Of a stretch of 64,000 nucleotides of DNA, positions 22,286-47,049 are shown one piece after another. The notes beneath the pieces are model-generated. The model was not told where the DNA came from, searched no databases, and worked only from the letters and a program-made list of their open reading frames with translations. The stretch's first letter is position 1. Every line of letters begins with the position of its first letter. Source of the DNA: Blastococcus sp. CCUG 61487 (GTDB taxonomy: Bacteria; Actinomycetota; Actinomycetes; Mycobacteriales; Geodermatophilaceae). The stretch spans positions 1-64,000 of the forward strand of contig NZ_LWUA01000113.1 in the NCBI RefSeq assembly GCF_005222955.1. Reading direction: 5' to 3'. A program made the translations under genes and the position numbers.

Positions 22286-22456
22286 GGCTCCCAGTCGGAT
22301 CGTCGCCATCTGGTGCCGGTGACCTCGCGAGGCTGCCGAGCAAGCAGACGCCTCAGAAGCCTCGGACGAGGAAACGGAGCGTGGCGGTTCCTCTCTGTCG
22401 GTGGGCCGTGGCAGTCTGCGGCGGCGGTGAAGCAACTGGTGCGAAGGAGCTGTTGA

Positions 22457-30100: not shown

Positions 30101-30345
30101 AGGACCAGGGCGACTTCGTGCCGTACTGGGTCTACGGCGGGGAGGCGAAGATCGAGCGTCACGTCTACCCGTACGCACTGAGTCTCGACGGTCCGCGGTA
30201 CGAGCGGCTCAAGCGCGACCTCGCGATGTACCGGTTGGCGTTCGGTCAACCGCGGCAGGAGGACCTGTTGAAGCTCCTCGACCGCAGGACCAACGAGGAG
30301 ATCGACCGCGCCGACGTCATCGATCTGCAGCCGCCGATCTATTGA
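27187..30345 (+). CDS. Large SF2 helicase of the lipase-DUF6361-PLD cluster
   Basis: GTG 27187 overlaps the PLD stop. The 1,052-residue helicase has VADETGLGKSVVARG (about 43), VILDEFQRFRN in place of a DEAH box (about 268), LLSATPYKP, then a long insertion, TTTSAGQEGIDFHWW and QREGRVHRFGGHAVRRN (about 927). The large insertion between the two RecA lobes (about residues 310-860) and the DEFQ Walker B set it apart from SNF2 and type I motors. The last ~100 residues include the cluster's conserved-looking YRLAFGQPRQEDLL. Ends 17 bases from the convergent nuclease gene with no visible terminator. Confidence 0.86.
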   Translation: MTRFDAAPVLAGLKDFQRATVEHVTRRFFVDPSPTRRFLVADETGLGKSVVARGVIAKTLEHLQDDDSVDRIDIVYICSNADIARQNLARLEVTGSRATQMSTRLTMLARHSATLKATAPDALDKPVNLVAFTPGTSFESGWRTGQAEERALIFLLLEQEWGLSGWGRRSALRALQATTRSFHRFQDVVSWVRASLKGDLDPVIAASFAEALRVTGVEERARRLFDDIGRREQLPHDLKERSTKLIGELRSALAKASIDSLQPDLVILDEFQRFRNLLSVEDGGESAELARELFDHGQSKVLLLSATPYKPFTLDQETITAGESHHKDFLETLRFLNGDPDWLKTVQDALTAYRGALTRGRSAADAAARVRELLTTVMTRAERPRLRAGEMVQERRLDITHLQTDDVRGYLRLRELASAVDANATLEYWKSAPYFVNFTDGYQLGEKLKKALGDGGAHDLRTLVARTQHIDATALARFGEIDMGNPRLRQLAEETVGQGWWQLLWLPPSMPYFQLGAPFVEHAGITKRLVFSSWSATPTAIAGLLSYEAERRLVDGRLRENSAPARAAVASRLDYRVDGERPAAMSALALFWPHPAFAELGDPLAVARSRPDETLRREDVEENVHERLVSRAPDHLAQSSDRESAAWTTVFGWPGAVPDMSRDDMLGALAGGAEAQDDVDRPAAEGHTGLAAHLDLALATAVGTMTPRLPRGDALHDIVRIAVHSPGNIAWRAVSRILRDGDAINPREHWRAAAHLAAHLRGLFNRLETTLLLDRGGDDHAYWRLVLDYCAAGNLQAVLDEYLHHLRSSVSDVPLSGQGLMALVDDVVRAVGLRPASYAPYYPLDEDGPRLRSRFALRYGSPRGVATDAAEGVQIRQQDVRTAFNSPFWPFVLTTTSAGQEGIDFHWWCSAIVHWNTPANPVDFEQREGRVHRFGGHAVRRNVAAAHRADALRAEDADLWKAAYDAADAATKDQGDFVPYWVYGGEAKIERHVYPYALSLDGPRYERLKRDLAMYRLAFGQPRQEDLLKLLDRRTNEEIDRADVIDLQPPIY

Positions 30346-33325: not shown

Positions 33326-36300
33326 TCACATCGTGGACGAGACGGCTCGCTCCGGGTGCAGGAAGAGGAGCACCGGGACCGCGTCGTCGCCTGTCGCCGA
33401 TGTGATGCCGTCGACGTACGCGCGAACCTGCGGGGCGTAGTGCTGAGTACGCGCGGCCACCGCTTCAGCCGGGATGGCGTCCGTCTTGTAGTCGACGATG
33501 ACCAGCGATCCGTCGTCCTCGCGGTAGACCAGGTCGACGTAGCCCTCCAGCACGGTGCCGTCGTCCTGCACCGTGCCCATGTACATCTCGCGCCAGTGGG
33601 GCCGGGTTGCAGCTCGCTGCACCGTCTCGGATGCAAGGGCCGACCGCACGAGATCGGTGACGAGGTCGGCAGCGCCCTCGACCCCTTCGGCGACGCACTG
33701 GGCGGTTACAGCCTCTTCTAGGCCGGCGCCGGTAGCGAGGTCGACCGACTGGAGCACCCCGTGCACGGCGCGGCCGATCGCGGTCCCGTACCGACCCTTG
33801 GTCCACGCCGGCAACTCGATGTTCAGCGCACCTTTCGCGCCGCCGGCCGTCTCCTCCGAACCCTCAAGCACCACGGAAGGCTCTGTGCCCTCCAACCCCG
33901 AAGCCGAGACCGCGGAAGGCTGTCGGCTGGCAGCGCGGACGGACTCCATCGCGGCGCTCCATTCCTCGAAATCCTGCGGGCTCGCCGCCTGCGGGGTCGG
34001 GACGGGGGAGAAGGCCCCCGCCGGCGAATCGATGACTGACCACCTCTCCGCAGCCTCCGTCCCGTGACCGTCCTCCGCTAGCAGCTTGGCGCTCGTCACG
34101 GTCTTCGATGCCGCCGAGCGGTGCAGCGACACCACGAGGTGGTCCCTGGCCCGCGTCGCCGCGACGTATAGCAGGCGGCGCCGCTCGCGATCGTCCATCT
34201 GCTCGTCGATGGGTGCGGCCGCCTCGAAGTCACCGGTCGTGACGCCCTGCTTCAGCGATACGGCGTAGCCGCCCTCGCGGGTCCACAGCACGCGCACCCC
34301 GTTGGGTCTGCGCGGCGCCGCGGTCATGCCGCTCATCACCACGATGGGGAACTCCAGGCCCTTGGCGGCGTGCACCGTCATGATGCGCACTGCCTCGGTG
34401 TCGGTTTCCGGCAGTGCTGCCTCGACAACCCGGGATGTCTCCTCGCCCTGCTGAGCCGCCCAGGCCAGGTAGGCCCGCAGGCCGCCGTGCTCCGACTCCG
34501 ACCAGGCGCGTGCCTGATCCACCACGAAGCGCAGCCGGCGCCAGTGATCACGGGCGCGCGGACCCGTGGCGGCGACCTCCAGCATCCGCCGGTCCGCGAC
34601 GATCGCGGCGAGCACCTCGCTGGGTGCCATCCACCGCGCGGCGTAGTGCAGACGCTGCAGGTAGGCGAGCGAACGGCCGACCGGGTGCTCGGCTGGCTTG
34701 TCGTCCAGCGGGGCGATGACGTTGAGCGCTCCGCCAGCCCGCTTCCAGGTCCACAGGTCGTCGTCCCCGCAACCGAACAACGGCGACCGCAAGGCGGTGA
34801 CCAGCGACAGCTGGTCGCTCGGGTCGGCGACTGCGCGCGCTGCGGCCAGCAAGTCCCGGACCTCCTGCGCCTCGTAGACGAGGGAGCTCGACTCGGCCCG
34901 GTACGGGATGCCTGCACGGTCGAGCGCATCCTCGAGAAAGGGAAGGGACGTGCGTGCCGGCACGAGGATCGCCACGTCATCCAGTCGCGCGGCCCGCCAC
35001 GCGCCGTCTACCTGAACCCGCCACTGCTCATCGATGGCTCGGCGGATCACTCCGGCGACGTCGGCTGCCTCGCGCTCGCGCAGCTCGGCCGCCTTGGGCT
35101 TGTCCAGGTGTGCCTCGGCCCCGAGCACGACCACGGGCGGCGACCCAGGCTCCGGTGGCCGGTGCGGGGAAAGAGCCTGAAACGCGGGCTGCCGGTCTTC
35201 CTCGAAGGTGATCAGCCGGCCGAACACGTCGTTGACCCAGGAGACGATCGGGTCGACGGTGCGGAAGTTCGTCGTCAGGCTCACGGGCTCTCCGATGACC
35301 TGCTGCGAGCGCAGGTAAATCGCGATGTCGGCCCGACGGAAGCGGTAGATCGACTGCTTCGGATCACCCACGACGAACAGCGATCCCGGTGGCACGTCGA
35401 CGTCCTCCCAGCGCTCCGCGCTGGCCGCGGCGCCGCCCGCGATGCGGACAGCGAGTTCGATTTGGATCGGGTCGGTGTCCTGGAACTCGTCCAGCAGCAG
35501 CCGCTGGTAACGCTCCTGGAGCGCTGCCCGCACCAAAGCGCCGTTCTCTCCGCGGAGCAGTTCGCGGGCGAGTACGAGCAAGTCGTGGAACTCGAGCCGA
35601 CCAGCGGCCCGTCGCTCTTCCGCCGCCTCGAGGACCCGTGCCGCGATCCACCGGCTCAGCGCGCGCAGGGTCGGCTCGAGCACGGCCTTGACCGCGTCGG
35701 CGGCCTGCTCCTTCACCTGCAGGCAGTCTTCCTTGAGGGCGTCGAGAACCGCCTTCCCGCCCCAGTTGCCTCCCTGCCCGTAGCTGAACTTCAGGTTGGC
35801 TGCCGTCCGAAGCACCTCGAGTTGCTGACCGGGGTCACCTGCGGCGGCGAGCGCGTCAGCCCAGGCGCCGAACTTCTCCAAGTAGGGGAGGAACTTGTCG
35901 TCGGAGGACGTGCACTCGTCGGCGCGCGCGACCAGCTCCGTGGTGCGCTGCACCAAATCGTCGATCCCCCGCAGCTCCGCGCGGCCGAGTTCCTCGCCGG
36001 TGAGCACCCGGTCGGCTACGAGGTCCCAGTCGGCGGTGAAGAGTTTGGCCAGCGAGCGCAGATGCTTCAGCTCGACGCCGGCAGCCATGGCGAGCAGCAG
36101 CGGCTCGGCGATCTCGTCGTCGTCGAGCAACTGTCGTCGCTGCTCGGCCCAGCGCTCCTCGAAGGCGACGGCGGAGCTGAGCTCGTCCGCGACCTCGATG
36201 AGCGGCGGAAGCCCCGCTTCGATCGGGTGCTCGGCGAGGATGCGCTGGGCGAACGAGTGCAGCGTGCCGATCGCGGCGCCGTCCAGGTCGTCGAGCGCCT

Positions 36301-36553
36301 CCTGGGCGCGTTCGCCTTCCTCCTTCTCCAGTGCCTCGCGCAGGCGGTCGCGGAGTTCGGCGCCAGCCTTCTCGGTGAACGTCACCGCGGCGATGCACCG
36401 CAGCGGGACGCCGTCTACGATCACCAGTTGTCGGATCCGGTCGACCAGGCTCTTGGTCTTGCCCGACCCGGCGCCGGCCTCGACGAACAGGGTTGCGTCG
36501 GTGTCCTCGGTGATCCGCCGCCGCGCCTTGGCGTCGACAAGGCTCGTGCTCAT
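33326..36553 (-). CDS. AddA/RecB-like ATP-dependent helicase-nuclease
   Basis: From ATG 36553 the 1,075-residue protein has EAGAGSGKTKSLVDRI (Walker A, about 25-32), LLLDEFQDTDPIQIE, VGDPKQSIYRFRRAD, TNFRTVDPIV, MTVHAAKGLEFPIVVM and LYVAATRARDHLV, a full UvrD-type motor. The C-terminal nuclease has VLEGYVDLVYRED, LVIVDYKTDA (about 1018) and APQVRAYV, complete for RecB-family nucleases. Its start overlaps the addB-like stop as ATGA, the standard arrangement of AddAB subunits that resect double-strand breaks and degrade linear foreign DNA. Its position within a nuclease island suggests an island-borne extra copy; which recombination enzyme the chromosome uses cannot be seen here. Confidence 0.92.
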   Translation of the reverse strand: MSTSLVDAKARRRITEDTDATLFVEAGAGSGKTKSLVDRIRQLVIVDGVPLRCIAAVTFTEKAGAELRDRLREALEKEEGERAQEALDDLDGAAIGTLHSFAQRILAEHPIEAGLPPLIEVADELSSAVAFEERWAEQRRQLLDDDEIAEPLLLAMAAGVELKHLRSLAKLFTADWDLVADRVLTGEELGRAELRGIDDLVQRTTELVARADECTSSDDKFLPYLEKFGAWADALAAAGDPGQQLEVLRTAANLKFSYGQGGNWGGKAVLDALKEDCLQVKEQAADAVKAVLEPTLRALSRWIAARVLEAAEERRAAGRLEFHDLLVLARELLRGENGALVRAALQERYQRLLLDEFQDTDPIQIELAVRIAGGAAASAERWEDVDVPPGSLFVVGDPKQSIYRFRRADIAIYLRSQQVIGEPVSLTTNFRTVDPIVSWVNDVFGRLITFEEDRQPAFQALSPHRPPEPGSPPVVVLGAEAHLDKPKAAELREREAADVAGVIRRAIDEQWRVQVDGAWRAARLDDVAILVPARTSLPFLEDALDRAGIPYRAESSSLVYEAQEVRDLLAAARAVADPSDQLSLVTALRSPLFGCGDDDLWTWKRAGGALNVIAPLDDKPAEHPVGRSLAYLQRLHYAARWMAPSEVLAAIVADRRMLEVAATGPRARDHWRRLRFVVDQARAWSESEHGGLRAYLAWAAQQGEETSRVVEAALPETDTEAVRIMTVHAAKGLEFPIVVMSGMTAAPRRPNGVRVLWTREGGYAVSLKQGVTTGDFEAAAPIDEQMDDRERRRLLYVAATRARDHLVVSLHRSAASKTVTSAKLLAEDGHGTEAAERWSVIDSPAGAFSPVPTPQAASPQDFEEWSAAMESVRAASRQPSAVSASGLEGTEPSVVLEGSEETAGGAKGALNIELPAWTKGRYGTAIGRAVHGVLQSVDLATGAGLEEAVTAQCVAEGVEGAADLVTDLVRSALASETVQRAATRPHWREMYMGTVQDDGTVLEGYVDLVYREDDGSLVIVDYKTDAIPAEAVAARTQHYAPQVRAYVDGITSATGDDAVPVLLFLHPERAVSSTM

Positions 36554-39500
36554 GCAGCACCTCCGTCGGTGTCGGGCAGCGGCTCGATGAGGGCGACCAC
36601 GTCGGCAAGCCGCGGGTCGGACTTCTTCTGCTCCCAGCGGCGGCGCGCCTCCGCGTGGCCGATGCCGTCTGGATTGCAGTAGGCGCACTGGACGTAGGCG
36701 AAATCCGGGTCGACCGGAGACCGGGCCGGGAACAGCCCGCGGCGGATGCCGGTGATGATCGTCTGGAGCGTCTCGGCGTAGGTGCGCTCGACGGCCTCCG
36801 TCAGCGGTACCTCGATGCGCCCCTTGTCGCGTCGGACGAACCAGTACGCGGCCTCGACTTCGGCCTCTGGGTCATAGGCGGCCCGCGCCGCGTGCGCATA
36901 GACGGGCAGCTGGAGCTTGGTCCCACCTGCGACAGGGTTGGCCTCGTCCAGCTCCTGGAAGTCGCGGGCGCTCCCGCTCTTGATGTCGGTGACGTACAGG
37001 CGGCCGTCGACGTCCCGGTCCACCTTGTCTGCGGCCCCCCGCATCAGCACCGTGCCGCCGTCAGGTATCGGGATGGCCACGGGCTCTGCGCCCCGCATGC
37101 CGAAGGCCAGCTCGCTGGCGATGACGGCAGCCCGGTGCTCGGCACGCCACTCGTCGTCCGCGATCAGCATGGCCCGCAGGTCGGCCTTGATGCGGCTCAG
37201 CGTCTGCTCCCACAGCCGGGGGTGGCCGGTGCGGCCCTCGGCGGCGAAGCGGTCGGCTTCCTCCTGCGCAATCGCGGCCAACCGTTGCTGCTGCGCCTCG
37301 GTCCACGGCTCCCCGTAGTCGGGGAGCCGGCCGGCGAACTCGCGCACGAGCCGGTCGAAGCTGTTGTGCATCAACGTCCCGATGTCGGCCGGGCTGATGG
37401 TGATCACGTCTTCGGGCAGCTCGATGGGTGCCACCCCGAGCAGCCGCTCGATGAAGTACGCGTGCGGGCACCGGGCGTACTTCTCGAGTGCGGTGGGGGA
37501 GATGACCGCAGTCCCGTCCGCGTGGTCGGGCAGGTCATCCACACCGGTGAGGTCGCCGTCATACCGGGTGAACTGAGAGCTGGCGCGCGCCCGCAGCAGT
37601 GCGTGCGCCGCCTCGGCCACCGGGTCGGGGGGAGCCGTTCGGGCGTGCGCGGCCTGGGTGCGCCACTCCTGTTCGCTGGCAGGGCGCGGTGTGGTGACCA
37701 GCGAGCCGGCGAACGAGGCGGAGGTGAGCATCCAGTCGGTCGGCTGGGCATCCCACTTGGTCGCCGAGAGATCTGGGCGCCCGGAAAGGGCCTTCATCGT
37801 CGGCAGCAGCCAGCGGCTGGGCAGGTGCTGGCTCTTCGTCCGTAGGTCGCCGCGCGGGAACGATGCCAGGACATCCGGTGCGGCGGCGAAGGCGGCCAGG
37901 AGGTGCCGGTGCTTTTCGTCGAGCCGCTCCCGGTACCCGACGAGTTGGCCTCCAGCCGCCTCGCGAGCACGTTCAGGCAGCAGCGGGTCCTCGCGCAGCC
38001 GTCCGGGGAACGTCGCTTCTGCGAGACCGAGCACGAAGACGGCGTCGGCCTCGAGACCGATGGCCGCGGACACGGGGGCGACGAGGACGCCGTCCCCGAA
38101 TCGTCCGACGCGCGGAAGGGCCGCCTCCAGCTGGCTGGCGACCGTCTCGTGCAGCTCCGTCAAGCCGGCGCGGGCGCCGTCGAAGGAATCAAGGACGGCG
38201 ACGCCGCGCAGTGCCTGCTCGACGGCCACGGCGGCGTACTGCTCCTCAGGCGGGAGCGCTGTGAGCTCCTCGGCCTGCCCGATGAGCTGGTGCATGAGTT
38301 GGAGAGCCCAGTCGCTGAGCTCCCGCCAGCTGGTGAGCCCGCGCGCCGCGGCCAGCCGCTCGCGGAGGTCGGCGACGAAGCTCCTCAGTCGCTCGGCGTT
38401 GATGATGCTCGCGTTCAGCCGCGCGACGACGCCGGGGCGCACGTCGTCTCGGGCCTCCTCGTCGGCGAGCCGGTCGCGCTCCTCCTGGAGGAAGACGGTC
38501 AGCCGTTTGTCCCAGTCCGGCCCGGAGACAACGCCCGCCGAACGGGACAGCCGTTCCCACCGGGCCACGGGCACGCGCTCACCGTCGCGCGCCCGCATGG
38601 GCGCGGTGGCGAGGACGCGGAAGAGGTCACCGCGCGGCACGTCGCGTTCCGGCCCTGTGCCCGCCAGGTCGAGCAGCCCGAGGATCGCGCGGGCGACAGC
38701 GCGCTCATGGATGGGGCGGGTGCCCGGGCCGTTGATCGTGATGCCCGCCGCGCCGAGGTGCTCGTGCAGAAGGCGGGCGTACGGGTTCTGGGCTGAGTAG
38801 AGGACGACCACTCGGTGGGCGGGGTGCCGGGTCAGCGCCTCGACGACCTCGCGTACGACGCAGCGCACCTCGTCGTCGGCGTCCGAGGCGGTGAGGACCC
38901 GGGTGGCCGTAGGGGGACGAGTCGGGGCCGCGGGTGCCGACGCTCCGATGCGGCTCAGCGAGCGGTGCACCGCCGCGTCCGCCTTCGGCTGGCCGGTCAG
39001 ACCGACGACGTGGACGGTGGAGTCCGCCCCGAGTGCCGCGACGAACGCGGACTCTGCCTGGGTCAAGGACTGCGGGAGGTACAGGACGACGGTGCCGATC
39101 TCCGCGGCCTTCTCTGGATGCCTGCGGCAGATCTCTGCCGCCACGTGCAGCAGATCGGTCTGGTCGTACCAACCTGCCGAGAGCTCGGCGACGACCGAGC
39201 GGTGGAGGCGCACCAGGTCGCCGCCAAGAGGCTGGACGGCGCCGAGTGCGTCCAGGGCAGCGGCATCCATGTCACGGAGCTCCCGGCCGGCCCGGACCAG
39301 CGCCTGCACGGTCGCCGGGTGGTCCTTGACGGAGTGGAAAATCCCGGCGTCCTTCTCCAACGCCGAGCGCCACGCGGCGGCGACCACCGGCCCCGTTGCG
39401 GGCCGGCGGTCGTGCAACGAGGGGGCGGCGAGTTGCTCCGCGAGCCGGGCGATGGTCGTCGGGTACAGGGCGGCCACCCCGTGGTGACCGTCGCCCAAGC

Positions 39501-39642
39501 CGCGGGCGAGAAAGCGTCGCGCCACGATGCCGGCGATGTTGCTCGGCACGAGCACTGTCACCGGCGCCAGTGGATCGCCCTGCTTGGCCTCGCGCACGAC
39601 GTCGCGAAGCTCCTCGAGCGCCTCCCGCCCGTAACCAGCCAT
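36550..39642 (-). CDS. AddB-like exonuclease subunit
   Basis: The 1,030-residue partner of the AddA-like protein starts at ATG 39642, or GTG 39648. The N-terminal helicase-like half lacks a clear Walker A Lys (VTVLVPSNIAGIVARRF), as expected of a non-motor, Chi-scanning-type subunit. The C-terminal nuclease has ARCPHAYFIERLL (about 724), IGTLMHNSFDRLV, KVDRDVDGRLYVTDIKSGS (about 886) and QLPVYA. The Fe-S cluster of AddB-type nucleases normally uses one upstream and three downstream cysteines; here only CAYC is seen downstream (about 987), so the third is missing or displaced. The 3' end overlaps addA (ATGA). Confidence 0.85.
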   Translation of the reverse strand: MAGYGREALEELRDVVREAKQGDPLAPVTVLVPSNIAGIVARRFLARGLGDGHHGVAALYPTTIARLAEQLAAPSLHDRRPATGPVVAAAWRSALEKDAGIFHSVKDHPATVQALVRAGRELRDMDAAALDALGAVQPLGGDLVRLHRSVVAELSAGWYDQTDLLHVAAEICRRHPEKAAEIGTVVLYLPQSLTQAESAFVAALGADSTVHVVGLTGQPKADAAVHRSLSRIGASAPAAPTRPPTATRVLTASDADDEVRCVVREVVEALTRHPAHRVVVLYSAQNPYARLLHEHLGAAGITINGPGTRPIHERAVARAILGLLDLAGTGPERDVPRGDLFRVLATAPMRARDGERVPVARWERLSRSAGVVSGPDWDKRLTVFLQEERDRLADEEARDDVRPGVVARLNASIINAERLRSFVADLRERLAAARGLTSWRELSDWALQLMHQLIGQAEELTALPPEEQYAAVAVEQALRGVAVLDSFDGARAGLTELHETVASQLEAALPRVGRFGDGVLVAPVSAAIGLEADAVFVLGLAEATFPGRLREDPLLPERAREAAGGQLVGYRERLDEKHRHLLAAFAAAPDVLASFPRGDLRTKSQHLPSRWLLPTMKALSGRPDLSATKWDAQPTDWMLTSASFAGSLVTTPRPASEQEWRTQAAHARTAPPDPVAEAAHALLRARASSQFTRYDGDLTGVDDLPDHADGTAVISPTALEKYARCPHAYFIERLLGVAPIELPEDVITISPADIGTLMHNSFDRLVREFAGRLPDYGEPWTEAQQQRLAAIAQEEADRFAAEGRTGHPRLWEQTLSRIKADLRAMLIADDEWRAEHRAAVIASELAFGMRGAEPVAIPIPDGGTVLMRGAADKVDRDVDGRLYVTDIKSGSARDFQELDEANPVAGGTKLQLPVYAHAARAAYDPEAEVEAAYWFVRRDKGRIEVPLTEAVERTYAETLQTIITGIRRGLFPARSPVDPDFAYVQCAYCNPDGIGHAEARRRWEQKKSDPRLADVVALIEPLPDTDGGAA

Positions 39643-39934
39643 GCCCACCCCCGTGACTCGGACCGGGTCGGACCGTAACAGCGAGGTGTGACACTTCTCG
39701 TGCCCCAGCTCACAAATGCGCTCGACGGCCCGGCGTGATCAACGGCGGTGCCTGAAGGCTGAGACCCGGTTCGAGCGTTGCCCCGGCGCGTGAGGACAAG
39801 TTGCGTCCTGGGACGGTTGGGGCGGATGCGGGAGGCGTTGGGCTCGGAACCCCGGATATGTCGGCCGGCTGTGGCAGCGTCCGCCGGGCGCCCCCGTTCC
39901 GGCGCACCGAGTCCGCAAGTGTGGAGGACGCCCC
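39643..39934. other. Divergent intergenic control region between addB-like gene and exonuclease operon
   Basis: These 292 bases separate the minus-strand nuclease operon from the plus-strand exonuclease operon and must hold promoters for both. I see no gene in them, no LexA box (TCGAAC-N4-GTTCGA) and no copy of the GATAR-N6-TTATC dyad found at the restriction locus. The last bases supply GGAGG for the GTG at 39935. Confidence 0.5.
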
Positions 39935-41236
39935 GTGACAGTTGCCGTCATCGACGTCGAAACAACAGGGCTGTCCCCGCGCACGGACCGCGTCGTCGAG
40001 GTGGGCGTGGTGCTTCTCGACGCCCGGGGTGACGTCGAGGCGGAGTTCGAGACGTTGATCAACCCCGGTCGCGACGTTGGGCCAACGGGGCTGCACGGGA
40101 TCGCCGCCTCCGACGTCGTCGACGCGCCGCCTTTCTCCGAGGTCGCGCCGCATCTGCGCTCACTCTTGGCCGGCCGGGTCGTTGTCGCCCACAACGCCCT
40201 GTTCGACCTGCGCTTCCTCGCCCGCGAGTTCGCGCGGTCCGGGTTGCGCTTCGACCTGTTCCCGTCCCTGTGCACCATGCGGCTGGCGCCGTCGTTCTTC
40301 GGTTCGGGCACGCGCTCGTTGCAGGCGCTGTGCGGCTTTCTCGACATCCCGCTCGAGCGGGGGCACGCGGCGCTGTACGACGCCCGCGCCACTGCGGAAC
40401 TGATGCTGTCCATGCTGGCCTCCGACCTCGGCCAGGGTTCCCTGGCAGGAGCCGGCGTCCGTGTCGAGTTTGGTGACGACGGGAGCTACCTTGGCTTCGA
40501 GGCCCTCGACGGCGGATGGGCCGATCTCGTCGCGGCCGCCGCCGCCCACGCCGACGACACCCCGGTTGCCCCGTGCCGCAGCCTGCCCCGCGACGCCGCC
40601 ACTGCGGCGGTGCGCGAGCGTGACGGTTACCTCGGCGGACTCGTCGCCGCGTTGCCGCCGCTGGACGACGCGCCGCCGAGCATGGCTCCCTACCTCACCG
40701 TGCTGGATCAGGTTCTCGAGGACCGGTTGGTCAGCGTCACGGAAGCCGATCAACTGATGGCTCTCGCTGAAGAGCTGGGGTGCGGGGGCGACCACGTCTT
40801 CGCGGCGCACCGCATCTACCTGGAGGCGCTCGCCACCGCCGCACATGCCGACGGTGTTGTCACCGATGACGAGCGGGCCGACCTCGACCGGGTCGCGGTG
40901 CTGCTCGGCATGAGCAGCCGCGACGTCGACCTGGCGCTGTCCGTGGTGCGCAGCGGGGCGCAGGTCTCGCTGCCCCGGCGGGCGGACGTCTTCACGTCCG
41001 GAGACAAGGTCGTCTTCACCGGTGCGATGAGCCGCAGCCGGGCCGACCTGGAGCAGGCGGCCCGCGACGCCGGTCTGATTCCGAGCTCGTCGGTCTCGAA
41101 GCAGACCGCCGTCCTGGTCTGCGCGGATCCGCACTCTCAGTCGGGCAAGGCCGCCAAGGCCCGCGCACTCGGCGTGCGGGTCATCAGCGAGGCCGTCTTC
41201 TGGGAGTCACTTCCGGTCGTAGGCGCACCGGCGTGA
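39935..41236 (+). CDS. DEDDh 3'-5' exonuclease with TerB-like and BRCT domains
   Basis: GTG 39935 lies behind GGAGG. The 433-residue protein has an N-terminal DnaQ-type exonuclease: VIDVETTGLSP (DxE), VVAHNALFDLRFLAR and GHAALYDARATAEL (H-x4-D). A middle domain (about residues 215-330) with ATAAHADGVVTDDERADLDRV resembles the TerB fold. The C-terminus is a BRCT domain (GDKVVFTGAMSRSRADLEQAARDAG...VLVCADPHSQSGKAAKARALG) as in NAD-dependent ligases and replication factors. The set suggests an exonuclease recruited to DNA ends or nicks. First gene of a seven-gene coupled operon; its TGA lies within the GTGA start of the NERD-helicase gene. Confidence 0.88.
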   Translation: MTVAVIDVETTGLSPRTDRVVEVGVVLLDARGDVEAEFETLINPGRDVGPTGLHGIAASDVVDAPPFSEVAPHLRSLLAGRVVVAHNALFDLRFLAREFARSGLRFDLFPSLCTMRLAPSFFGSGTRSLQALCGFLDIPLERGHAALYDARATAELMLSMLASDLGQGSLAGAGVRVEFGDDGSYLGFEALDGGWADLVAAAAAHADDTPVAPCRSLPRDAATAAVRERDGYLGGLVAALPPLDDAPPSMAPYLTVLDQVLEDRLVSVTEADQLMALAEELGCGGDHVFAAHRIYLEALATAAHADGVVTDDERADLDRVAVLLGMSSRDVDLALSVVRSGAQVSLPRRADVFTSGDKVVFTGAMSRSRADLEQAARDAGLIPSSSVSKQTAVLVCADPHSQSGKAAKARALGVRVISEAVFWESLPVVGAPA

Positions 41237-42885
41237 CGGCGCGCCTCTTCCCGGACGACCCGCGGTTCGGATCCGCCGCCGAGGCGCTCTTCGTCGAGGA
41301 GGTGCGCGAGCAGCTGCCGGACGACGTCGTCCTCATCTGCAACCTCCGCTTCAGCGACGGCAGGGAGGACAGGGAAGCGGACCTGATCGTTGCGTGGCCT
41401 GGCGTCGGTGTCGCCGTCGTCGAGGTCAAGGGCGGCAGTGTGTCGCTGGACCGAGGGGAGTGGCGGCAGCGCCAGGAGGGCGTCGACCGCGTCATCCACC
41501 CGGTCGACCAGGCGGTGGCTTGCAAGTACCTGCTCTGCGACTACTTGGCCAAGCACTCCCGGTGGTCCGGCGGGCGTCCACGCACCGCCCACCTCGTCGC
41601 CGCGCCGGCGACGACTCTGCCTGCTGACTTCGTCGCGCCCGGCCTCGCCCGCTGGATGGCACTCGACGTCACCGACGTGCCGCATGCCGCCGCGCGCATC
41701 CGGGCGGCGTTGGAGAAGGTCCGCGACGAGCCGGACCCGCCCACCACCGAGGATGTGGAAGAGCTGGTCGACTGCCTGGCGGGGACCGCGATCCCGCAGC
41801 AGCACCTCCTGGCCGAACTGGCCGAGCGCGAAGCCGCCTGCGACTTGCTCACCCGAGACCAGGCCAAGGTGCTCGATCTGCTTGGCGAGTACTCCCGCGT
41901 GGAGATCCGCGGCGGGGCAGGTTCGGGCAAGACCTGGCTGGCGGTGGAGAAGGCCCGACGGCTCGCGGCGGAAGGGCAGCGGGTCGCGCTCATGTGCTAC
42001 TCGCGCGGCCTCGCCGAGTTCCTGAAGCGCCGCGTCGAGAAGCTGCCCAAGCGGCAGCGGCCGGCCTACGTCGGCACCTTTCACTACCTCGGCATCGACT
42101 GGGGAGTGCCCGCCGGCTCCGACGACGACAGCCGCTATTGGGAGGAGTTCTTGCCCGCCGAGATGGTGAAGCTGGCCGGCGCGCTTCCGGAGGAGCAGCG
42201 GTTCGACGCCATCGTCATCGACGAGGGGCAGGACTTCGCGCAGAGCTGGTGGGACGCCGTCGTAGCGGCGCTGCGCGACCCCGAGCGCGGATGCATCTAC
42301 GTCTTCTCGGACGAAGGGCAGCGCATCTTCGCGCGCCAGGGGCGGCCGACCGTCGACCTCATGCCGATCTCGCTCAACGAGAACCTGCGCAACACCAAGC
42401 AGATCGCCGGCACGTTCTCCAGCCTCGCTCCGCAGCAGATGCGGATCCGCGGCTCCTCGGGCGTGCCGGTGCGCTTCGTCCAGTGCTCGCCTGACGAGGC
42501 GGTCGATGCTGCCGACGGTGTCGCCGAGGAACTGCTCGACGAGGGCTGGCCACCGGAGGCTCTGGCGTTGCTGACTACGCACCGCCGGCACCCCGTGCAG
42601 GTGGAGCGGCAGGCCGAGGGCCAGGACGCGTACTGGGCGACGTATTGGGACAACGACGACCTCTTCTACGGGCATGTGCTCGGGTTCAAGGGGCTCGAGC
42701 GGCCGGCCGTCGTCCTGGCGGTCAACGGGTTCCGCGACGAGGCGCGGGCCCGGGAGATGTTGTACGTCGGGTTGTCCCGCGCACGCGACCTGCTCGTCGT
42801 CTGTGGTGACCTCGATTTGATCCGACGAGTCGGCGGCGAGGCGGTCGCCCGTCGGCTGACCGCGGGAACTGGAGAGAAAACGTGA
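41233..42885 (+). CDS. NERD nuclease-related domain / UvrD-like helicase
   Basis: GTG 41233 overlaps the exonuclease stop. In 550 residues the N-terminal NERD domain (about 13-110) shows READLIVAWPGVGVAVVEVKGG with the D and E-x-K of the PD-(D/E)XK fold. The SF1 motor follows: RGGAGSGKTWLAVEKA (about 230), AIVIDEGQDFAQSWWD (about 328), NENLRNTKQI, GFKGLERPAVVLAV and YVGLSRARDLLVV. NERD-UvrD fusions are found in defence and stress islands and are thought to unwind and nick DNA. Overlaps the downstream OGG gene by four bases. Confidence 0.92.
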   Translation: MTARLFPDDPRFGSAAEALFVEEVREQLPDDVVLICNLRFSDGREDREADLIVAWPGVGVAVVEVKGGSVSLDRGEWRQRQEGVDRVIHPVDQAVACKYLLCDYLAKHSRWSGGRPRTAHLVAAPATTLPADFVAPGLARWMALDVTDVPHAAARIRAALEKVRDEPDPPTTEDVEELVDCLAGTAIPQQHLLAELAEREAACDLLTRDQAKVLDLLGEYSRVEIRGGAGSGKTWLAVEKARRLAAEGQRVALMCYSRGLAEFLKRRVEKLPKRQRPAYVGTFHYLGIDWGVPAGSDDDSRYWEEFLPAEMVKLAGALPEEQRFDAIVIDEGQDFAQSWWDAVVAALRDPERGCIYVFSDEGQRIFARQGRPTVDLMPISLNENLRNTKQIAGTFSSLAPQQMRIRGSSGVPVRFVQCSPDEAVDAADGVAEELLDEGWPPEALALLTTHRRHPVQVERQAEGQDAYWATYWDNDDLFYGHVLGFKGLERPAVVLAVNGFRDEARAREMLYVGLSRARDLLVVCGDLDLIRRVGGEAVARRLTAGTGEKT

Positions 42886-43583
42886 CCCGCTCGACCACTG
42901 ATTTGCCCCTTCCGGAGTGGCTCGCAGCCAAGGCCCGAGGCGCATCCGCGGGCGACGTCCTGGGGATGGGTGTGCGGGTGAACCGCGACTGGTGGGTGGC
43001 CGCGCTCGGCGACACGCCCTTCGCCGACGAGGTGTTCGAGACCGACGACGGGAGGCTTCGCCGGACGCAGCTCTTCCGGCTCGGAGAGCGGGCCACCGAG
43101 TCGCCGGAGGACGCCCGACGGCTGCTGTGGGCAAGCGTGGCGTGGGGGACTGGCCGTCGCCACCGACTGAACCGGGCCCGCCTCAGGTCGGTGCTCGGTC
43201 GGCAGGACGACGTCTCGGCGGCGCTGCAGCAGGCCGCCGAAGTCAGCCGCACCGACTCACGGGCCGCGTACCGGCTGATGCGGCCGGGCCGGAACACGGT
43301 GCGGTACCTCGGGCCACCGTTCTTCACGAAGTTCCTGTACTTCGCCGGCGGGGGCAGCCCCGCACACCCCTGTCTGGTCCTCGACTCACTGGTGGCCAAG
43401 GCGTTACGGCAGGACTGCGGTTGGAATGGGCTGACCGGCCGGTACGTCTGGTCTGCAGACGAATACGCGGCCTACTGCGACCTGCTGACGAGGTGGGCCG
43501 ACGAGTTGAACGAGGACGGGGGCGACCCGGTGCGTCCAGACCAACTGGAGTACGCCATGTTCGACCATGGGAGGCATTCGTGA
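42882..43583 (+). CDS. 8-oxoguanine DNA glycosylase OGG-like protein
   Basis: GTG 42882 overlaps the NERD-helicase stop (GTGA). The 233-residue protein has the layout of the bacterial OGG-fold family: helical N-terminus, then MRPGRNTVRYLGPPFFTKFLYFAG with a Lys in the position of the catalytic lysine, and PCLVLDSLVAKALR with an Asp in the position of the catalytic aspartate. Members are predicted to excise oxidised or modified guanine. Embedded between a helicase and a restriction-like nuclease, it may instead recognise modified bases in phage DNA; that idea is inference. Overlaps the next start by four bases. Confidence 0.78.
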   Translation: MTRSTTDLPLPEWLAAKARGASAGDVLGMGVRVNRDWWVAALGDTPFADEVFETDDGRLRRTQLFRLGERATESPEDARRLLWASVAWGTGRRHRLNRARLRSVLGRQDDVSAALQQAAEVSRTDSRAAYRLMRPGRNTVRYLGPPFFTKFLYFAGGGSPAHPCLVLDSLVAKALRQDCGWNGLTGRYVWSADEYAAYCDLLTRWADELNEDGGDPVRPDQLEYAMFDHGRHS

Positions 43584-44518
43584 CGGACCCCGACATCACC
43601 TTCGTCGCCTCGGACAACCCGGTCACCCGGCGGGAGCGGCGTCGACAGTCGGCGTACCGGGAGGAGGTGCTGCGGCTGCCGGCCGGCACCGACGCCCGCG
43701 GCCGCACGTTCGGCAACTACCTGCCGGCAGGCGATCGTCGAAGCAACTTCCTCAGCGACGAGGCCGCGACGTACGCGGCGGCGCGCGCGGATGTTGTCCG
43801 GAACGAGGGCGGCCAACTCGAACAGAACCGGCTGTTCACCAACATGCTGAGCTCGATGCCGCTGGCTTTCAACGTCTTCGGTCACCTTCGCGCTCACCCC
43901 GGTGCGGCGCTCGTCCTGCTGTCCAACCTGTCGGGGAGCACCCTTACCGAGCTGGAGACCGTCGTGGTCGGCTCGCGGACCATCGCGGGGATCGAGTGCG
44001 AATGGGCTCCGACCCGGCGCGACCACCTCGACGACGGCACGGCCTTCGATGCCGTCGCGGCGGCACGGCAGGCGAACGGCCGACGATTGCTCATCGCGGT
44101 CGAGGTCAAGTACATCGACTCGTTCAGTCGAGACCCGGAGAACGCCGAGAAGGACGCCAAGTACCGGAGAATCTGCGAGCGCTTCGGGCTGGCTCCGACC
44201 GCCTTCGAAGCGCTCCAAGGGCCGGCCACGCGCCAGCTGCTGCGCAACGTCCTGCTCACCGAGAGCGTGCGACGGGGTGGTGCGGACGCGGCCGAGCCGC
44301 TGTTCGATGACGCGGTCACCCTTGTGCTGGCGCGGGACGATGACCCAGCGGCGCGCGGTGCCGTGGATGCGGTGCGGCGCCAACGAGGCGACCTGCAGAC
44401 CGACGTGGCCTTCGTCGGGCACGGTGAACTCGCCGATGCAGCGGATGCGGTGGAAGCTCTCGTCCCGTGGTCGGCCCGGTTCCGCCGCCGCTATGTCCCA
44501 CCGGAAGCCCGGCAGTGA
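43580..44518 (+). CDS. PGN_0703-like putative PD-(D/E)XK restriction endonuclease
   Basis: GTG 43580 overlaps the OGG stop; longer readings in this frame are the OGG gene out of frame. The 312-residue protein has NFLSDEAATYAAARADVVRNEGG followed by EQNRLFTNMLSSMPLAFNVFGHLR, the helical N-terminus of the PGN_0703 group, then WAPTRRDHLDDGTAFDAV and LLIAVEVKYIDSFS, giving a D...E-x-K site (about residues 151-178). It is predicted to cut DNA; specificity unknown. The GTGA overlap with the next gene keeps it in the coupled operon. Confidence 0.85.
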   Translation: MTDPDITFVASDNPVTRRERRRQSAYREEVLRLPAGTDARGRTFGNYLPAGDRRSNFLSDEAATYAAARADVVRNEGGQLEQNRLFTNMLSSMPLAFNVFGHLRAHPGAALVLLSNLSGSTLTELETVVVGSRTIAGIECEWAPTRRDHLDDGTAFDAVAAARQANGRRLLIAVEVKYIDSFSRDPENAEKDAKYRRICERFGLAPTAFEALQGPATRQLLRNVLLTESVRRGGADAAEPLFDDAVTLVLARDDDPAARGAVDAVRRQRGDLQTDVAFVGHGELADAADAVEALVPWSARFRRRYVPPEARQ

Positions 44519-45818
44519 CGACCTCCGAGCTCACGATCTGGCAGCTCGTCGCCGAGGCGGCTAGAACGCTGCCCGAGCCGTTCAGCCGTCAGGCCTTGAT
44601 CAGCTGGATCAGCAAGCGGCGCACGGACGTCGAGCTGTCGTCGATCAGCACGCACATCGCCTACGCCGTGGCGGAGACGCCTAACCGCGACCGGCACCCC
44701 CTCGGTTCGCGAGAGCCGCTGCTCGAGCGCGTCGACCGAGGCCTCTACCGGCGCTACCGCGGGGGAAGCGCTGCCTCCCCCTCCCGGCCGGCACACGTTC
44801 CCGCGGGAACGTCGAGCATCCCGTCTGTCCGCCGGCAGGGCACGGCGCACGTCCTCCTGGTCGGGTGCTCCCGCACCAAGGCGTCCGTCGCCGCCCCGGC
44901 CAAGGACCTGTTCCAGGGACCTGGATTCCGACGGGCTCGCCGTACGCGGAGGCGTGCGGTGCGCCGTGGTTCGTGCTGACTGCCAAGTACGGCCTGCTCG
45001 CCCCGGATGACGTCGTCGGCCCCTACGACGTCTATCTCACCGATCAGTCAGGGCAGTACCGGGCTGCCTGGGGGGAGTGGGTGGTCGCCCAGCTCGCCGA
45101 ACGGAGGCTTCTCGCCGGTGTCACCGTCGAGGTGCACGCCAGCGAGGCCTACACCGCTCCGCTGCGCGAGCCACTGCGCCGCCTCGGCGCGACGCTGCAC
45201 GAGCCGCTCGCCGGCTTGCGGCAGGGCGAACGCCTGGCCTGGTACGGCGCCGCACCCGAGCCGGATGAGGACGACGTCCCTGACGTCGCACCGCTCCTCG
45301 ACGCGAGCAACAGCGTCCCGCCGGCCCAGTTCCTGGCCGACGGGCGCACCGCCGCTGCCCGACCAGGTCTCTACAGCTGGTGGGTCGACCAGGCCGGTGC
45401 GCACGACCTGTCCGCGGGCCTCGGTCATCGGGTCACTCCGGGCCTTGTCTACGCGGGTCGCGCGGGTGGCGTGCGCCCCAACGGCGAGGCGTCGGCCAAC
45501 ACGCTGTGGGGCCGCATCGGCGAGATGCACCTGGGCGGCAACCGGCAGTTCTCCACCTTCCGCCTGACGCTTGCCGCTGCTCTCTCCGAGTCACACGAAG
45601 CCCCGGTCGACGAGGCTTCAGTCACCGCTTGGATGCACCGGCATCTGCGCGTTGCTGTCTTGCCACTGCCACCGGAAGCGGTGGCCGCCGGGGAGGCAGC
45701 ACTACTGCGCCTCGCCGACCCGCCGCTCAATCTCCGCGACGTGCCTGCGACGGAGCTGCGCCGCAGCCTCAGCCGTCGCCGCTCCGCTCTGAACGCTGCA
45801 TCGAGAGGAACCGCATGA
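44515..45818 (+). pseudogene. DUF7669 / DUF6884 / GIY-YIG nuclease fusion, -1 frameshift
   Basis: GTG 44515 overlaps the previous stop. The first frame gives a DUF7669-type winged helix (TIWQLVAEAARTLPEPFSRQ...VDRGLYRRYRG), a linker and the start of DUF6884 (HVLLVGCSRTKASVAAPAKD). After about 44940 the protein continues in the -1 frame: YAEACGAPWFVLTAKYGLL (rest of DUF6884), then a GIY-YIG nuclease (PGLYSWWVDQ, PGLVYAGRAGG, LWGRIGEMH, and Glu near AAGEAALLRL). One extra base at 44941-44942 (CGCCG-TAC) would restore ~435 residues. No motif is damaged, so this is a very recent lesion or a consensus error. The end overlaps the next ATG by four bases. Confidence 0.82.
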
Positions 45819-46522
45819 CCCCGCCACCCTTGCCGGCCCGGGTGCCGTCCAGCCCCACGGCAGGCCAGCGCTTCCAGGCGGGCGGCTGGTACTACGTGCT
45901 CACGATCGCCACCGCCGGCCTCCTGGCAGCGGTGCCGTTCTGGCACGCGGCCAGCCGGCTGCGTCGTCGCGACGTCCGGACGCTCGCGCTCGCCTACACG
46001 GCGGCCGACATCTACCTGATCGTCCTGCTGTCGCTCACCCCGCCGCAGCAGCCGGACGGGACGTCAGGAAACGAGACCCTGAGCACCATCGGCGGACTGA
46101 GCGCCGTGTTCGTGATCGTCGTCGCCTGCATCCAGCTGCGCTCCTTGCGTCGTCAGGTGTACGGCGGGGCTGGCGTCGTGCCGGTCCACGACGACCCGGT
46201 CGTCGCCCGCGCCTTGGCCGGACGAGCTCGACGGGAGGAGAGCCGGCAGCTGCTCGCCCGCGAACCGGGTCTGCAGCGGGAGCTGGGTATCGGCCGGCCC
46301 GACCTGCGGAGGGGGTATGACGACGGCGGCTTGATCGACGTCAACACTGCCCCGGCCGAGGTGATCGCGCGCGTGACCGACATCGACCCCGCCCATGCGG
46401 AGGCCATCGTGGCGGCGCGCACCGCGCGCGGCGGCACCTGGTTCAACATCGGTGAACTGCTCGTCGACGTGCCGCTGCCGCCATATGCGCAGGAGCAGCT
46501 ACGCGAGCGGGCGATCTTCTGA
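45815..46522 (+). CDS. Membrane protein with ComEA-type helix-hairpin-helix domain
   Basis: ATG 45815 (ATGA overlap) has GAGAGGAA upstream. The 235-residue protein has two or three N-terminal hydrophobic segments (WYYVLTIATAGLLAAVPFW, IYLIVLLSLT, LSAVFVIVVACIQL). A basic linker follows, then a C-terminal helix-hairpin-helix repeat: GLIDVNTAPAEVIARVTDID and AEAIVAARTARGGTWFNIGEL. This motif binds DNA non-specifically, as in the competence protein ComEA. Orientation is unclear; the DNA-binding end is probably cytoplasmic, tethering the operon's enzymes or DNA to the membrane (inference). Its stop shares a base with the next start (TGATG). Confidence 0.8.
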   Translation: MTPPPLPARVPSSPTAGQRFQAGGWYYVLTIATAGLLAAVPFWHAASRLRRRDVRTLALAYTAADIYLIVLLSLTPPQQPDGTSGNETLSTIGGLSAVFVIVVACIQLRSLRRQVYGGAGVVPVHDDPVVARALAGRARREESRQLLAREPGLQRELGIGRPDLRRGYDDGGLIDVNTAPAEVIARVTDIDPAHAEAIVAARTARGGTWFNIGELLVDVPLPPYAQEQLRERAIF

Positions 46523-47049
46523 TGAGCGGCCCCTCGTACCGCCCCGGCGGGGGAGCGTCGGCGCGGCACTCGCAGCCGTGGTGGCTCGTCGTCGGTGGCC
46601 TGGCCGTGATCGGACTCGGTGGCGCGGCGGTGGGTGGGTTCAGCGACCAACCGGCGTCGTCCTCGCCCGCAGCGGCCTCGTCGTCGCCAGAGACGAGAGC
46701 GGTCACCGAGGCGCCGTCGACGACCTCCAGTCGTCCCGTGCCCACGACCACGTCGTCGGCAGCTCCGACCGTTCCGCCGACGACAGCTCCGCCCACGACG
46801 ACGGCGACCGGTGTGGACTTCGTGATGCCGAACCTGGTCGGCTCGGACCTGCAGTCGGCGCAGGACGCGGTGCAGGAGCTCGACGTGTTCTACAGCGTGT
46901 CGCACGACCTGCTGGGCAGCCGGAACCAGGTGATCGACTCGAACTGGATCGTCTGCGACCAGAACGTCGCTCCCGGCCAGCGCGTCACTGGCGACGTCGA
47001 AGGGCAGATCGACTTCGGCGTGGTCAAGCGCGAAGAGCGCTGCCCGTAG
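46522..47049 (+). CDS. Single-pass PASTA-domain protein
   Basis: ATG 46522 overlaps the upstream stop (TGATG). Of 175 residues, the N-terminus has one hydrophobic helix (PWWLVVGGLAVIGLGGAAVGG), followed by a Ser/Thr/Pro-rich spacer of about 65 residues and a C-terminal PASTA-like domain (FVMPNLVGSDLQSAQDAVQEL ending VAPGQRV). PASTA domains usually bind peptidoglycan fragments or beta-lactams at the cell surface. It is the last gene of the coupled operon, and its extracytoplasmic role fits poorly with the DNA enzymes upstream. Confidence 0.8.
   Translation: MSGPSYRPGGGASARHSQPWWLVVGGLAVIGLGGAAVGGFSDQPASSSPAAASSSPETRAVTEAPSTTSSRPVPTTTSSAAPTVPPTTAPPTTTATGVDFVMPNLVGSDLQSAQDAVQELDVFYSVSHDLLGSRNQVIDSNWIVCDQNVAPGQRVTGDVEGQIDFGVVKREERCP

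Follow-up and report, generated by a model that had tools for sequence, protein, structure and literature searches.

Do seven genes that overlap one another by four bases or one form a single machine, or are they separable parts that share one stretch of DNA? The question is raised by positions 39935-47049 of a 64,000-nucleotide stretch from the actinobacterium Blastococcus sp. CCUG 61487 (contig NZ_LWUA01000113.1), the whole of which is called the window here. Its seven co-directional genes, named A to G, encode an exonuclease (A), a helicase with a nuclease domain (B), an OGG-like glycosylase (C), a PD-(D/E)XK nuclease (D), a protein joining DUF7669, DUF6884 and GIY-YIG domains (E), a membrane-type protein (F) and a small protein (G). 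The original prediction took them for one coupled system of base-damage recognition, unwinding and cleavage, an observation that we could confirm in part. To us, the genes look like separately movable anti-invader modules behind a shared helicase, B, with one module broken, and not like one machine. Our preferred reading, to which we give a probability of about 0.55, is a defence-island locus with a helicase core, B, which A joins in a quarter of the loci, and exchangeable nuclease cassettes that would read altered bases. Both cassettes (C-D and E) look built to flip out and read such bases, and then to cut.

Partners of the helicase gene are exchanged between loci

We followed B through 66 genomes of the family (relatives are labelled L for loci, and G with three digits for genomes). 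Relatives of B with at least 46% identity were present in 32 genomes, one of them broken (the tally at an E value of 0.001 is 35; 32 is the number of rows at or above that identity). Gene A lies directly upstream of B in 8 of these 32 loci (the window, L034, L074, L075, L080, L081, L083 and L096). Downstream of B, the C-D pair is found in the window and at locus L034 (G053). In Geodermatophilus chilensis (G496), a member of the same family, C is spread over two contig ends, one piece coming after B (L076) and the remainder lying with D (L117); the two parts cover codons 8-141 and 142-227, and the cut at codons 141/142 was perhaps made by an insertion element. L017 and L117 are one contig and this species was counted once; the record G496:C342 equals the G. 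chilensis contig over the 10,449 bases compared. Gene E is near B in 5 of the 32 loci, standing directly after it in L063, L077, L079 and L085 and separated from it by C-D in the window; the B-E overlap is 4 bases in L077, L079 and L085, which carry three genus codes, and L063 has a 10-base gap. In L088, a DUF7662 gene and a D relative follow B. Gene F occurs in 4 of the 32 loci (the window, L034, L063 and L064), and the full set A-G is found in the window alone.

Linkage to B NEVERTHELESS was real, with partners lying near B far above chance in the 66 genomes. Matches within 5 kb of B amounted to 8 of 13 for A (at least 62% identity), 5 of 7 for E (at least 60%), 5 of 9 for D and 4 of 10 for F (all matches for the latter two; the ten F relatives come from ten family genomes). 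The naive binomial P values range from 8e-19 to 5e-9, or from 2e-16 to 9e-7 without the window, figures that are uncorrected for kinship and depend on identity limits chosen after the lists had been seen. The count excludes the weaker A rows (DnaQ-like, at most 52% identity) and 21 of 28 E rows, mainly DUF6884-only or GIY-YIG-only proteins, one of which, in G496, is no more than 5 kb from B; two of the seven E rows counted (G055 and G500) are partial with a stop, and two of the five D matches near B are not same-strand downstream cargo (upstream in L079, on the opposite strand in L073). Within the family, linkage to B is borne out; the set itself is not conserved, and in the loci checked in other families B, C, D and E stand separately.

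A tree was built from 31 of the 32 B proteins, leaving out the fragmented B of L099; on it, the fewest changes needed were 4 for A, 3 for C, 5 for E and 4 for F, indicating that cargo was repeatedly gained or lost. The nearest B (L072, same genus, 93-94% identity) has none of A or C-F in the stretch seen, on a contig that begins 2 kb upstream. In L072, L074 and L075, a protein family of 435-459 residues comes next after B as another cargo; its L072 copy has no Pfam match and shows hydrophobic stretches by eye. Upstream of B in L076 and L086 we observed proteins of 226-259 residues, without Pfam match, that resemble the GIY-YIG part of E and are perhaps degenerate GIY-YIG partners of B.

A further neighbour of B is a gene for an ADP-ribosylglycohydrolase-phosphatase, located within a few kb of it in 20 of the 32 family loci and within 5 kb in 6 of 34 loci of other families (L128, L129, L130, L133, L159 and L164). 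Many of these loci also have an NrtR-type Nudix-winged-helix gene near B (nine of these proteins were compared with Pfam). In the window, neither gene lies within 6.5 kb of B. This neighbourhood may mark a hotspot at a fixed place or reflect a link in function with NAD (nicotinamide adenine dinucleotide) or ADP-ribose.

An OGG-like glycosylase paired with a PD-(D/E)XK nuclease

Protein C scored 206 bits against the Pfam OGG family PF21790 (cut-off 27). Its AlphaFold2 model, built on 21 relatives, is nearly all-helical with a mean predicted local distance difference test score (pLDDT) of 93.9. With VIA-align 2, it reached Z 10.5 to Thermotoga maritima Ogg (root mean square deviation 3.6, 167 residues aligned), 10.2 to Methanocaldococcus jannaschii Ogg and 9.0 to a third archaeal/bacterial Ogg, and other helix-hairpin-helix glycosylases came near Z 5-7, on a scale on which a helical model below about 13, or any other model below 8, may share no more than a common arrangement. 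The top rows are all DNA glycosylases. Our fold assignments for C and E combine VIA-align 2 with Pfam; profile and model together place C in the helix-hairpin-helix glycosylase fold, the Z score being weak by itself for a helical model. A catalytic pair is likewise predicted from the alignment, K150 being present in at least 90% of the 21 relatives and D168 in every one. The two residues are 18 apart, a spacing that we take to be that of K129 and D147 in the M. jannaschii enzyme (MjaOgg). Fold and residue pair support the OGG-like identity first proposed for C; in all probability it is an active glycosylase, which may be bifunctional.

Protein D scored 258.6 bits against PDDEXK_13 (cut-off 27), and its sequence carries a putative D...ExK motif in which D157 is invariant and K177 is present in at least 90% of 11 relatives; the glutamate is replaced in some. 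The earlier view of D and E as restriction-like nucleases stands, with the PDDEXK_13 profile for D and a GIY-YIG match and R.Eco29kI-like model for E. Neither C nor D had a PADLOC match up to 0.05.

The distribution of C is patchy. We found C in 6 of 57 family genomes and PF21790 in 16 of 396 genomes of the phylum. A C-D pair conserved across the phylum was rejected: PF20796, the family of D, is present in 3 of 26 OGG-positive genomes and adjoins C in two, the third (G049) carrying it on a contig other than that of C.

Gene C is also carried by 24 plasmid records, of which 11 are typed conjugative; a plasmid search with D gave four records, none covering 80% of it. We read the surroundings of C in nine of its 24 records and of E on three plasmids. 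On Arthrobacter plasmid pZXY22, a full-length A lies directly upstream of a C relative (one of the 24 records). Rhodococcus plasmids pLW3 and pRpMTN share a tyrosine recombinase pair (3,304 bases, 88% identical), next to which pLW3 carries E and pRpMTN carries C. Annotated uracil-DNA glycosylase genes were seen near E on pLW3 (L183) and near C on pMYC1 (L190). The locus illustrates how cargo can be exchanged around a helicase gene, and the plasmids show either C or E next to the one recombinase pair.

Gene E is broken in the window and intact in relatives

Contrary to the original prediction of a single DUF7669-DUF6884-GIY-YIG frame, E is split over two frames in the window (E1 and E2), which part near 44930-44945 as judged by alignment to relatives. 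An intact E, one open reading frame (ORF) encoding 426-439 residues, is present in L063, L077, L079 and L085. E2 shares 73% identity with an intact relative across 309 positions, and its first approximately 25 residues are out of register with relatives. The break may be a genuine mutation or a sequencing error in this assembly of 296 contigs; if it is real, the working cassette of the window would be C-D. The window copy lacks the continuous frame joining reader and nuclease that would be expected of a GIY-YIG restriction endonuclease, and the four intact loci have it.

In the intact proteins of L063, L077 and L079, DUF6884 scored 141-146 bits (cut-off 30). Intact relatives have the CxxxK and [IVL]SAxxG motifs, a combination of profile and motifs that suggests membership of the DpdC/DUF6884 family; in the window the motifs lie in two frames, the second reading LTAKYG. 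Against PADLOC, E2 matched PDC-M57A (3.2e-16) and intact E matched DpdC (1.5e-7). We modelled the intact L079 relative (pLDDT 83). VIA-align 2 gave a winged helix at the N-terminus (Z up to 8.3; 7.0 to that of DpnI), similarity of the middle to YaaA (Z 8.2 over 135 residues) and AF0587 (7.8), and similarity of the C-terminus to the GIY-YIG domains of R.Eco29kI and UvrC (Z 7.1), values that are middling, yet Pfam agrees for the middle and the end.

The N-terminal domain of E differs between relatives: L079 and L085 have DUF7669 there (L085 by alignment), L063 and L077 a domain that Pfam does not recognise, and two proteins from Rhodococcus plasmids a DUF7662-like one. By sequence comparison, the putative reader appears to be exchanged and the base domain and nuclease to stay constant.

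The accessible parts of three sources bear on the middle domain. DUF6884 is described as a domain of dpdC (PMC11888242), and DpdC as hydrolysing dPreQ0 to dADG (PMC12839542). The Pfam authors see a relationship between DUF6884 and YaaA, place a flipped nucleotide in the DUF6884 pocket by modelling, and list YfjM among interactors of abasic and RNA-base lesions (PMC11701544). Taken together, the family membership suggests that the central domain of E has a pocket for a flipped base, for which 7-deazaguanine or a damaged base would be the leading ligands. Since DUF6884 is the family of DpdC, whose substrate is 7-deazaguanine in DNA, E is a candidate modified-base-dependent restriction enzyme. 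On a Variovorax plasmid, a DUF6884 gene overlaps DpdB; neither DpdA nor DpdB is among the PADLOC matches listed for the 22 window ORFs scanned, and the SNF2 gene at 16917 has DpdE matches weaker than those to DrmD. DUF6884 relatives occur in 58 phage records, 50 of them from mycobacteriophages, none covering 80% of E.

Phages alter guanine and thereby evade restriction. To our knowledge, no bacterial enzyme aimed at 7-deazaguanine in phage DNA has been characterised, and E is a concrete candidate, which joins a domain family that handles 7-deazaguanine in DNA to a DNA reader and a nuclease. Actinobacteria can meet such targets: about 28% of the Gs in DNA of the mycobacteriophage Rosebush are dPreQ0 (PMC6884629, in the part available). 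Wild-type Escherichia phage CAjan, with dPreQ0 in its DNA, and a dpdA deletion of it are described in the same source.

A possible mode of action

In the preferred reading, the OGG-fold enzyme C would flip a guanine-like base out of DNA and excise it, and D would cut near the damaged or abasic site. In the second cassette, the winged-helix reader, the YaaA/DpdC-like base-binding domain and the GIY-YIG nuclease of E would together make a modification-dependent restriction endonuclease, whose likely target may be 7-deazaguanine or another altered base in phage DNA. B would then unwind, and A and the NERD domain of B might degrade the cut DNA and widen the break, the steps after recognition being conjectural. 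C-D and E could be alternative or stacked ways of recognising altered bases before cutting. Of the two functions first offered, immunity against base-modified phages fits the defence island and the DpdC-family domain of E, although the antiviral role itself is a prediction.

Layout of the locus and its surroundings

Coordinates, strand and overlaps (4, 4, 4, 4, 4 and 1 bases) were right as re-read on the window, the 4-base overlaps falling at A/B, B/C, C/D, D/E1 and E2/F and the single base at F/G (Table 1). Most of the earlier domain names also held (RNase_T and BRCT in A, and those of B, C, D and F), and TerB in A and PASTA in G fell below threshold.

Table 1. Genes of the operon in the window, with the matches that identify them
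Gene	Product	Position	Strand	Matches
A	DEDDh exonuclease - TerB-like - BRCT, 433 aa	39935..41236	+	PDC-S48, RNase_T, BRCT
B	NERD nuclease domain + UvrD-like helicase, 550 aa	41233..42885	+	NERD 7.6e-10, UvrD_C_2 2.9e-7
C	OGG-like helix-hairpin-helix DNA glycosylase (predicted), 233 aa	42882..43583	+	PF21790 6e-61
D	PD-(D/E)XK nuclease PDDEXK_13 (predicted), 312 aa	43580..44518	+	PF20796 9.5e-77, REase-ARP 4.1e-24
E1	DUF7669 (winged helix) + DUF6884 start	44515..44979	+	DUF7669 3.2e-24; DUF6884 positions 1-34
E2	Rest of DUF6884 (YaaA/DpdC-like) + GIY-YIG	44865..45818	+	DUF6884 31-133, 2.5e-29; GIY_YIG_2 6.4e-10
F	Membrane-type, C-terminal helix-hairpin-helix, 235 aa	45815..46522	+	T2SSK 1.2e-7, HHH_3 3.2e-6
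G	Small, weak PASTA-like C-terminus, 175 aa	46522..47049	+	PASTA 14.8 bits, cut-off 23.2

Protein A matched the PADLOC profile PDC-S48 (E=5e-132, 438.9 bits, residues 3-426 on positions 6-405 of 411), making it by sequence a probable full-length member. It has Pfam matches to RNase_T (7.5e-25) and BRCT (1.2e-5), a TerB match under the cut-off, and the motifs DVETTG, HNALFD and HAALYDA. In B we found the motifs EADL, EVK and GGAGSGKT and a match to PADLOC RTasNERD-Hel (3.1e-35); no reverse transcriptase is among the Pfam matches of the operon ORFs. Gabija was considered and rejected: B has weak GajB matches alone, and no GajA is among the PADLOC matches listed for the operon ORFs. F shows hydrophobic stretches by eye, and the membership of G in the system is doubtful.

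Overlaps of 4 bases also occur in 5 of the 28 other same-strand neighbour pairs of the window and in 66 of 329 same-strand pairs of 31 related loci (cassette pairs counted in), with gene starts as set by our own gene caller. Junctions vary in relatives, where we observed gaps of 23 bases for B-C, 163 for D-F, 10 for B-E and 85 for F-G. Because such overlaps are commonplace here and the junctions are variable, the fixed stoichiometry once read from the regular coupling is not implied; tidy overlaps do not equal one machine. In a consensus scan, the operon showed nothing promoter-like and a single terminator-like site, which is antisense (mean of 2.0 in shuffles).

Upstream of the operon are HsdM, HsdS and HsdR genes of a type I restriction-modification system, ZacABC (PADLOC: ZacA 7.8e-120, ZacB 2.6e-159, ZacC E=0), a SNF2 helicase, a UvrD-like gene, a PDC-S11 protein and an HNH protein. 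The type I system, ZacABC, PDC-S11, the HNH protein and the PDC-S48 match of A make the surroundings a defence island. Within 16917-30345, a closely spaced DrmD-like SNF2 helicase, UvrD-like gene and Pfam-matchless protein (22457-24250) precede ZacABC, and the region may be an extended Zac system. At 33326-39648, on the minus strand and divergent from the operon, two overlapping large AddA-/AddB-like genes score far under the equivalog cut-offs.

Loci beyond the family

Away from B, an A-like exonuclease adjoins a DUF7669-DUF6884 protein without GIY-YIG in L111-L115, and two further such DUF6884 genes (L119 and L120) have no A-like neighbour. A 5.9 kb gene lies beside or near the DUF6884 gene in L111, L113, L114, L119 and L120; its L113 copy matches PADLOC PDC-S37 (1.7e-269) and also Hhe. 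In another family, a DEDDh exonuclease is found directly upstream of a distant B (L149 and L150), and that of L149 (8189-9022) is fused to a WYL domain. In L128, C lies about 8 kb from B. B plus cassette appears to be a feature of one family, and the parts are wider and mobile.

Weighing the readings

Several results weigh against the preferred reading. Within the family, nothing labelled C, D, E or F lies within about 7 kb of B in 21 of the 32 loci, and C-D pairing is seen in three genomes, with C cut in one of them. Cargo labels on the B tree need 11 changes against a shuffled mean of 14.3, a value as low being reached in 0 of 200 shuffles; labels are thus more clustered than shuffled ones, and part of the pattern is inherited. 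Outside the family, B was recovered in 34 of 38 loci, and none of these has C, D or E labelled as its direct neighbour. C was recovered in 23 of 28 OGG-family loci; its neighbours there include D in L017 alone and never A or E, and B is found once, about 8 kb off. A further 17 D loci, in 11 of which D was recovered, had none of A, B, C and E labelled; ten neighbours of D comprise two unnamed proteins and eight of other families, one an AAA_5 ATPase. These surveys used a gene caller trained on this genome and small home-made profiles as labels, so distant or AT-rich loci are under-read. The recombinase pair is absent from the stretches read of the other two E and other eight C plasmids, and the exact DxETTG pattern is present in two of the five A-like proteins of L111-L115. 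The DUF6884 proteins of L111-L115, L119 and L120 and the GIY-YIG fusion of L100 have lost CxxxK, so that DpdC chemistry is not to be assumed. As for structure, Foldseek alone gave no PDB match below 0.001 for the models of C and E, the C alignment had no match to PDB sequences up to E=10, and the predicted template modelling score of the E model was 0.45.

An alternative is that A, B, C-D, E and F-G are independent defence or hotspot genes crowded at one chromosomal site, sharing a transcript only and uncoupled to B, an explanation that we consider rather unlikely and still the strongest of the rivals. It accommodates C and D that stand without B or E in nearly all other-family loci checked, C and E that do likewise on plasmids, the many B loci without C-F, the ordinary 4-base overlaps, and the recurrent ADP-ribosylglycohydrolase gene, as a fixed hotspot would give. 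It fares worse with E following B by the same 4-base overlap under three genus codes, with A at most 25 bases upstream of B in 8 of its 13 copies and a distant exonuclease placed likewise in L149 and L150, and with the A-like and DUF7669-DUF6884 pairs of five loci away from B and the A-C pair of pZXY22.

A bolder form of the preferred helicase-and-cassette reading would make the locus a helicase-anchored plug-in platform against base-modified phages, with NERD-UvrD and the DEDDh exonuclease serving interchangeable base-flipping cassettes; C-D would turn modified guanines into double-strand breaks, and E would be a new restriction-enzyme architecture, in which a winged helix, a DpdC-like 7-deazaguanine pocket and a GIY-YIG nuclease are joined and the N-terminal reader is itself exchanged. 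We regard this whole claim as improbable.

Oxidised-DNA repair, the other function first offered, would have C remove 8-oxoguanine, D or E nick the abasic site, and B and A process the patch. The fold and the catalytic Lys/Asp of C are in keeping with it, as are the action of YaaA, a DUF6884 relative, in oxidative stress and the listing of YfjM among interactors of abasic and RNA-base lesions (PMC11701544, in the part available). The patchy occurrence of C and PF21790, the carriage of C on plasmids, many of them typed conjugative, the defence-island setting, and nucleases of restriction type in place of AP endonucleases make such a role very unlikely. A single seven-gene machine with set stoichiometry, which would account for six coupled junctions and for A, B, C, D and F in the same order in G053, is largely refuted and gets next to no credence from us, as E is frame-broken in the window and absent at the G053 locus, C-D is absent at the G490 locus, A is absent in 24 of the 32 B loci, all seven meet in the window only, parts swap, and C and D stand apart elsewhere. 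The earlier reading as a whole is partly supported.

Comparison with known systems

The original prediction knew of no described system with this gene set, and we likewise found no paper describing the combination in the literature searched, subscription journals being mostly outside its coverage. Nor did that literature yield a GIY-YIG fusion with a DpdC-like domain, a reader exchanged within it, or cassettes exchanged around a helicase. A full-text search returned no mention of DUF7669, PDDEXK_13, REase-ARP or PGN_0703, and DUF6884 is mentioned in two papers; PDC-S48 and PDC-M57 do not occur among the matches listed (15 of 321).

Among PADLOC candidates, PDC-S48, PDC-M57A and RTasNERD-Hel are matched by A, E2 and B, respectively, whereas C and D are unmatched and the operon has no reverse transcriptase among its Pfam matches. 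Dpd systems share with E the family of its central domain (PMC11888242, in the part available), its YaaA-like fold and the PADLOC DpdC match; E differs in that this domain sits between a winged helix and a GIY-YIG nuclease. E resembles DpnI and R.Eco29kI in coupling a putative reader to a nuclease (Z 7.1 to R.Eco29kI for its GIY-YIG domain, 7.0 to the winged helix of DpnI), but has a DpdC/YaaA-like middle domain and a swappable N-terminal reader, and is known from sequence only. The R.PabI family, as described in the accessible part of PMC10273834, also restricts by base removal followed by cleavage of the abasic site, but has the HALFPIPE fold and acts on adenine in GTAC; we set it beside C by description. 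With Brig1 and Brig3, C shares the setting of a glycosylase in defence, possibly aimed at modified phage bases, but, going by the accessible parts of PMC11078745 and PMC13160076, those enzymes belong to the uracil-DNA-glycosylase superfamily and act on modified cytosine, and C is OGG-like and accompanied by a nuclease gene. As for a uracil-DNA-glycosylase fold of the Brig1 type, the C model is nearly all-helical with helix-hairpin-helix enzymes at the top, and the missing uracil-DNA-glycosylase rows are not exclusionary. The parts of this locus are of known kinds, and a glycosylase in phage defence is already known from Brig1 and Brig3, as far as the available parts of those two sources describe them.

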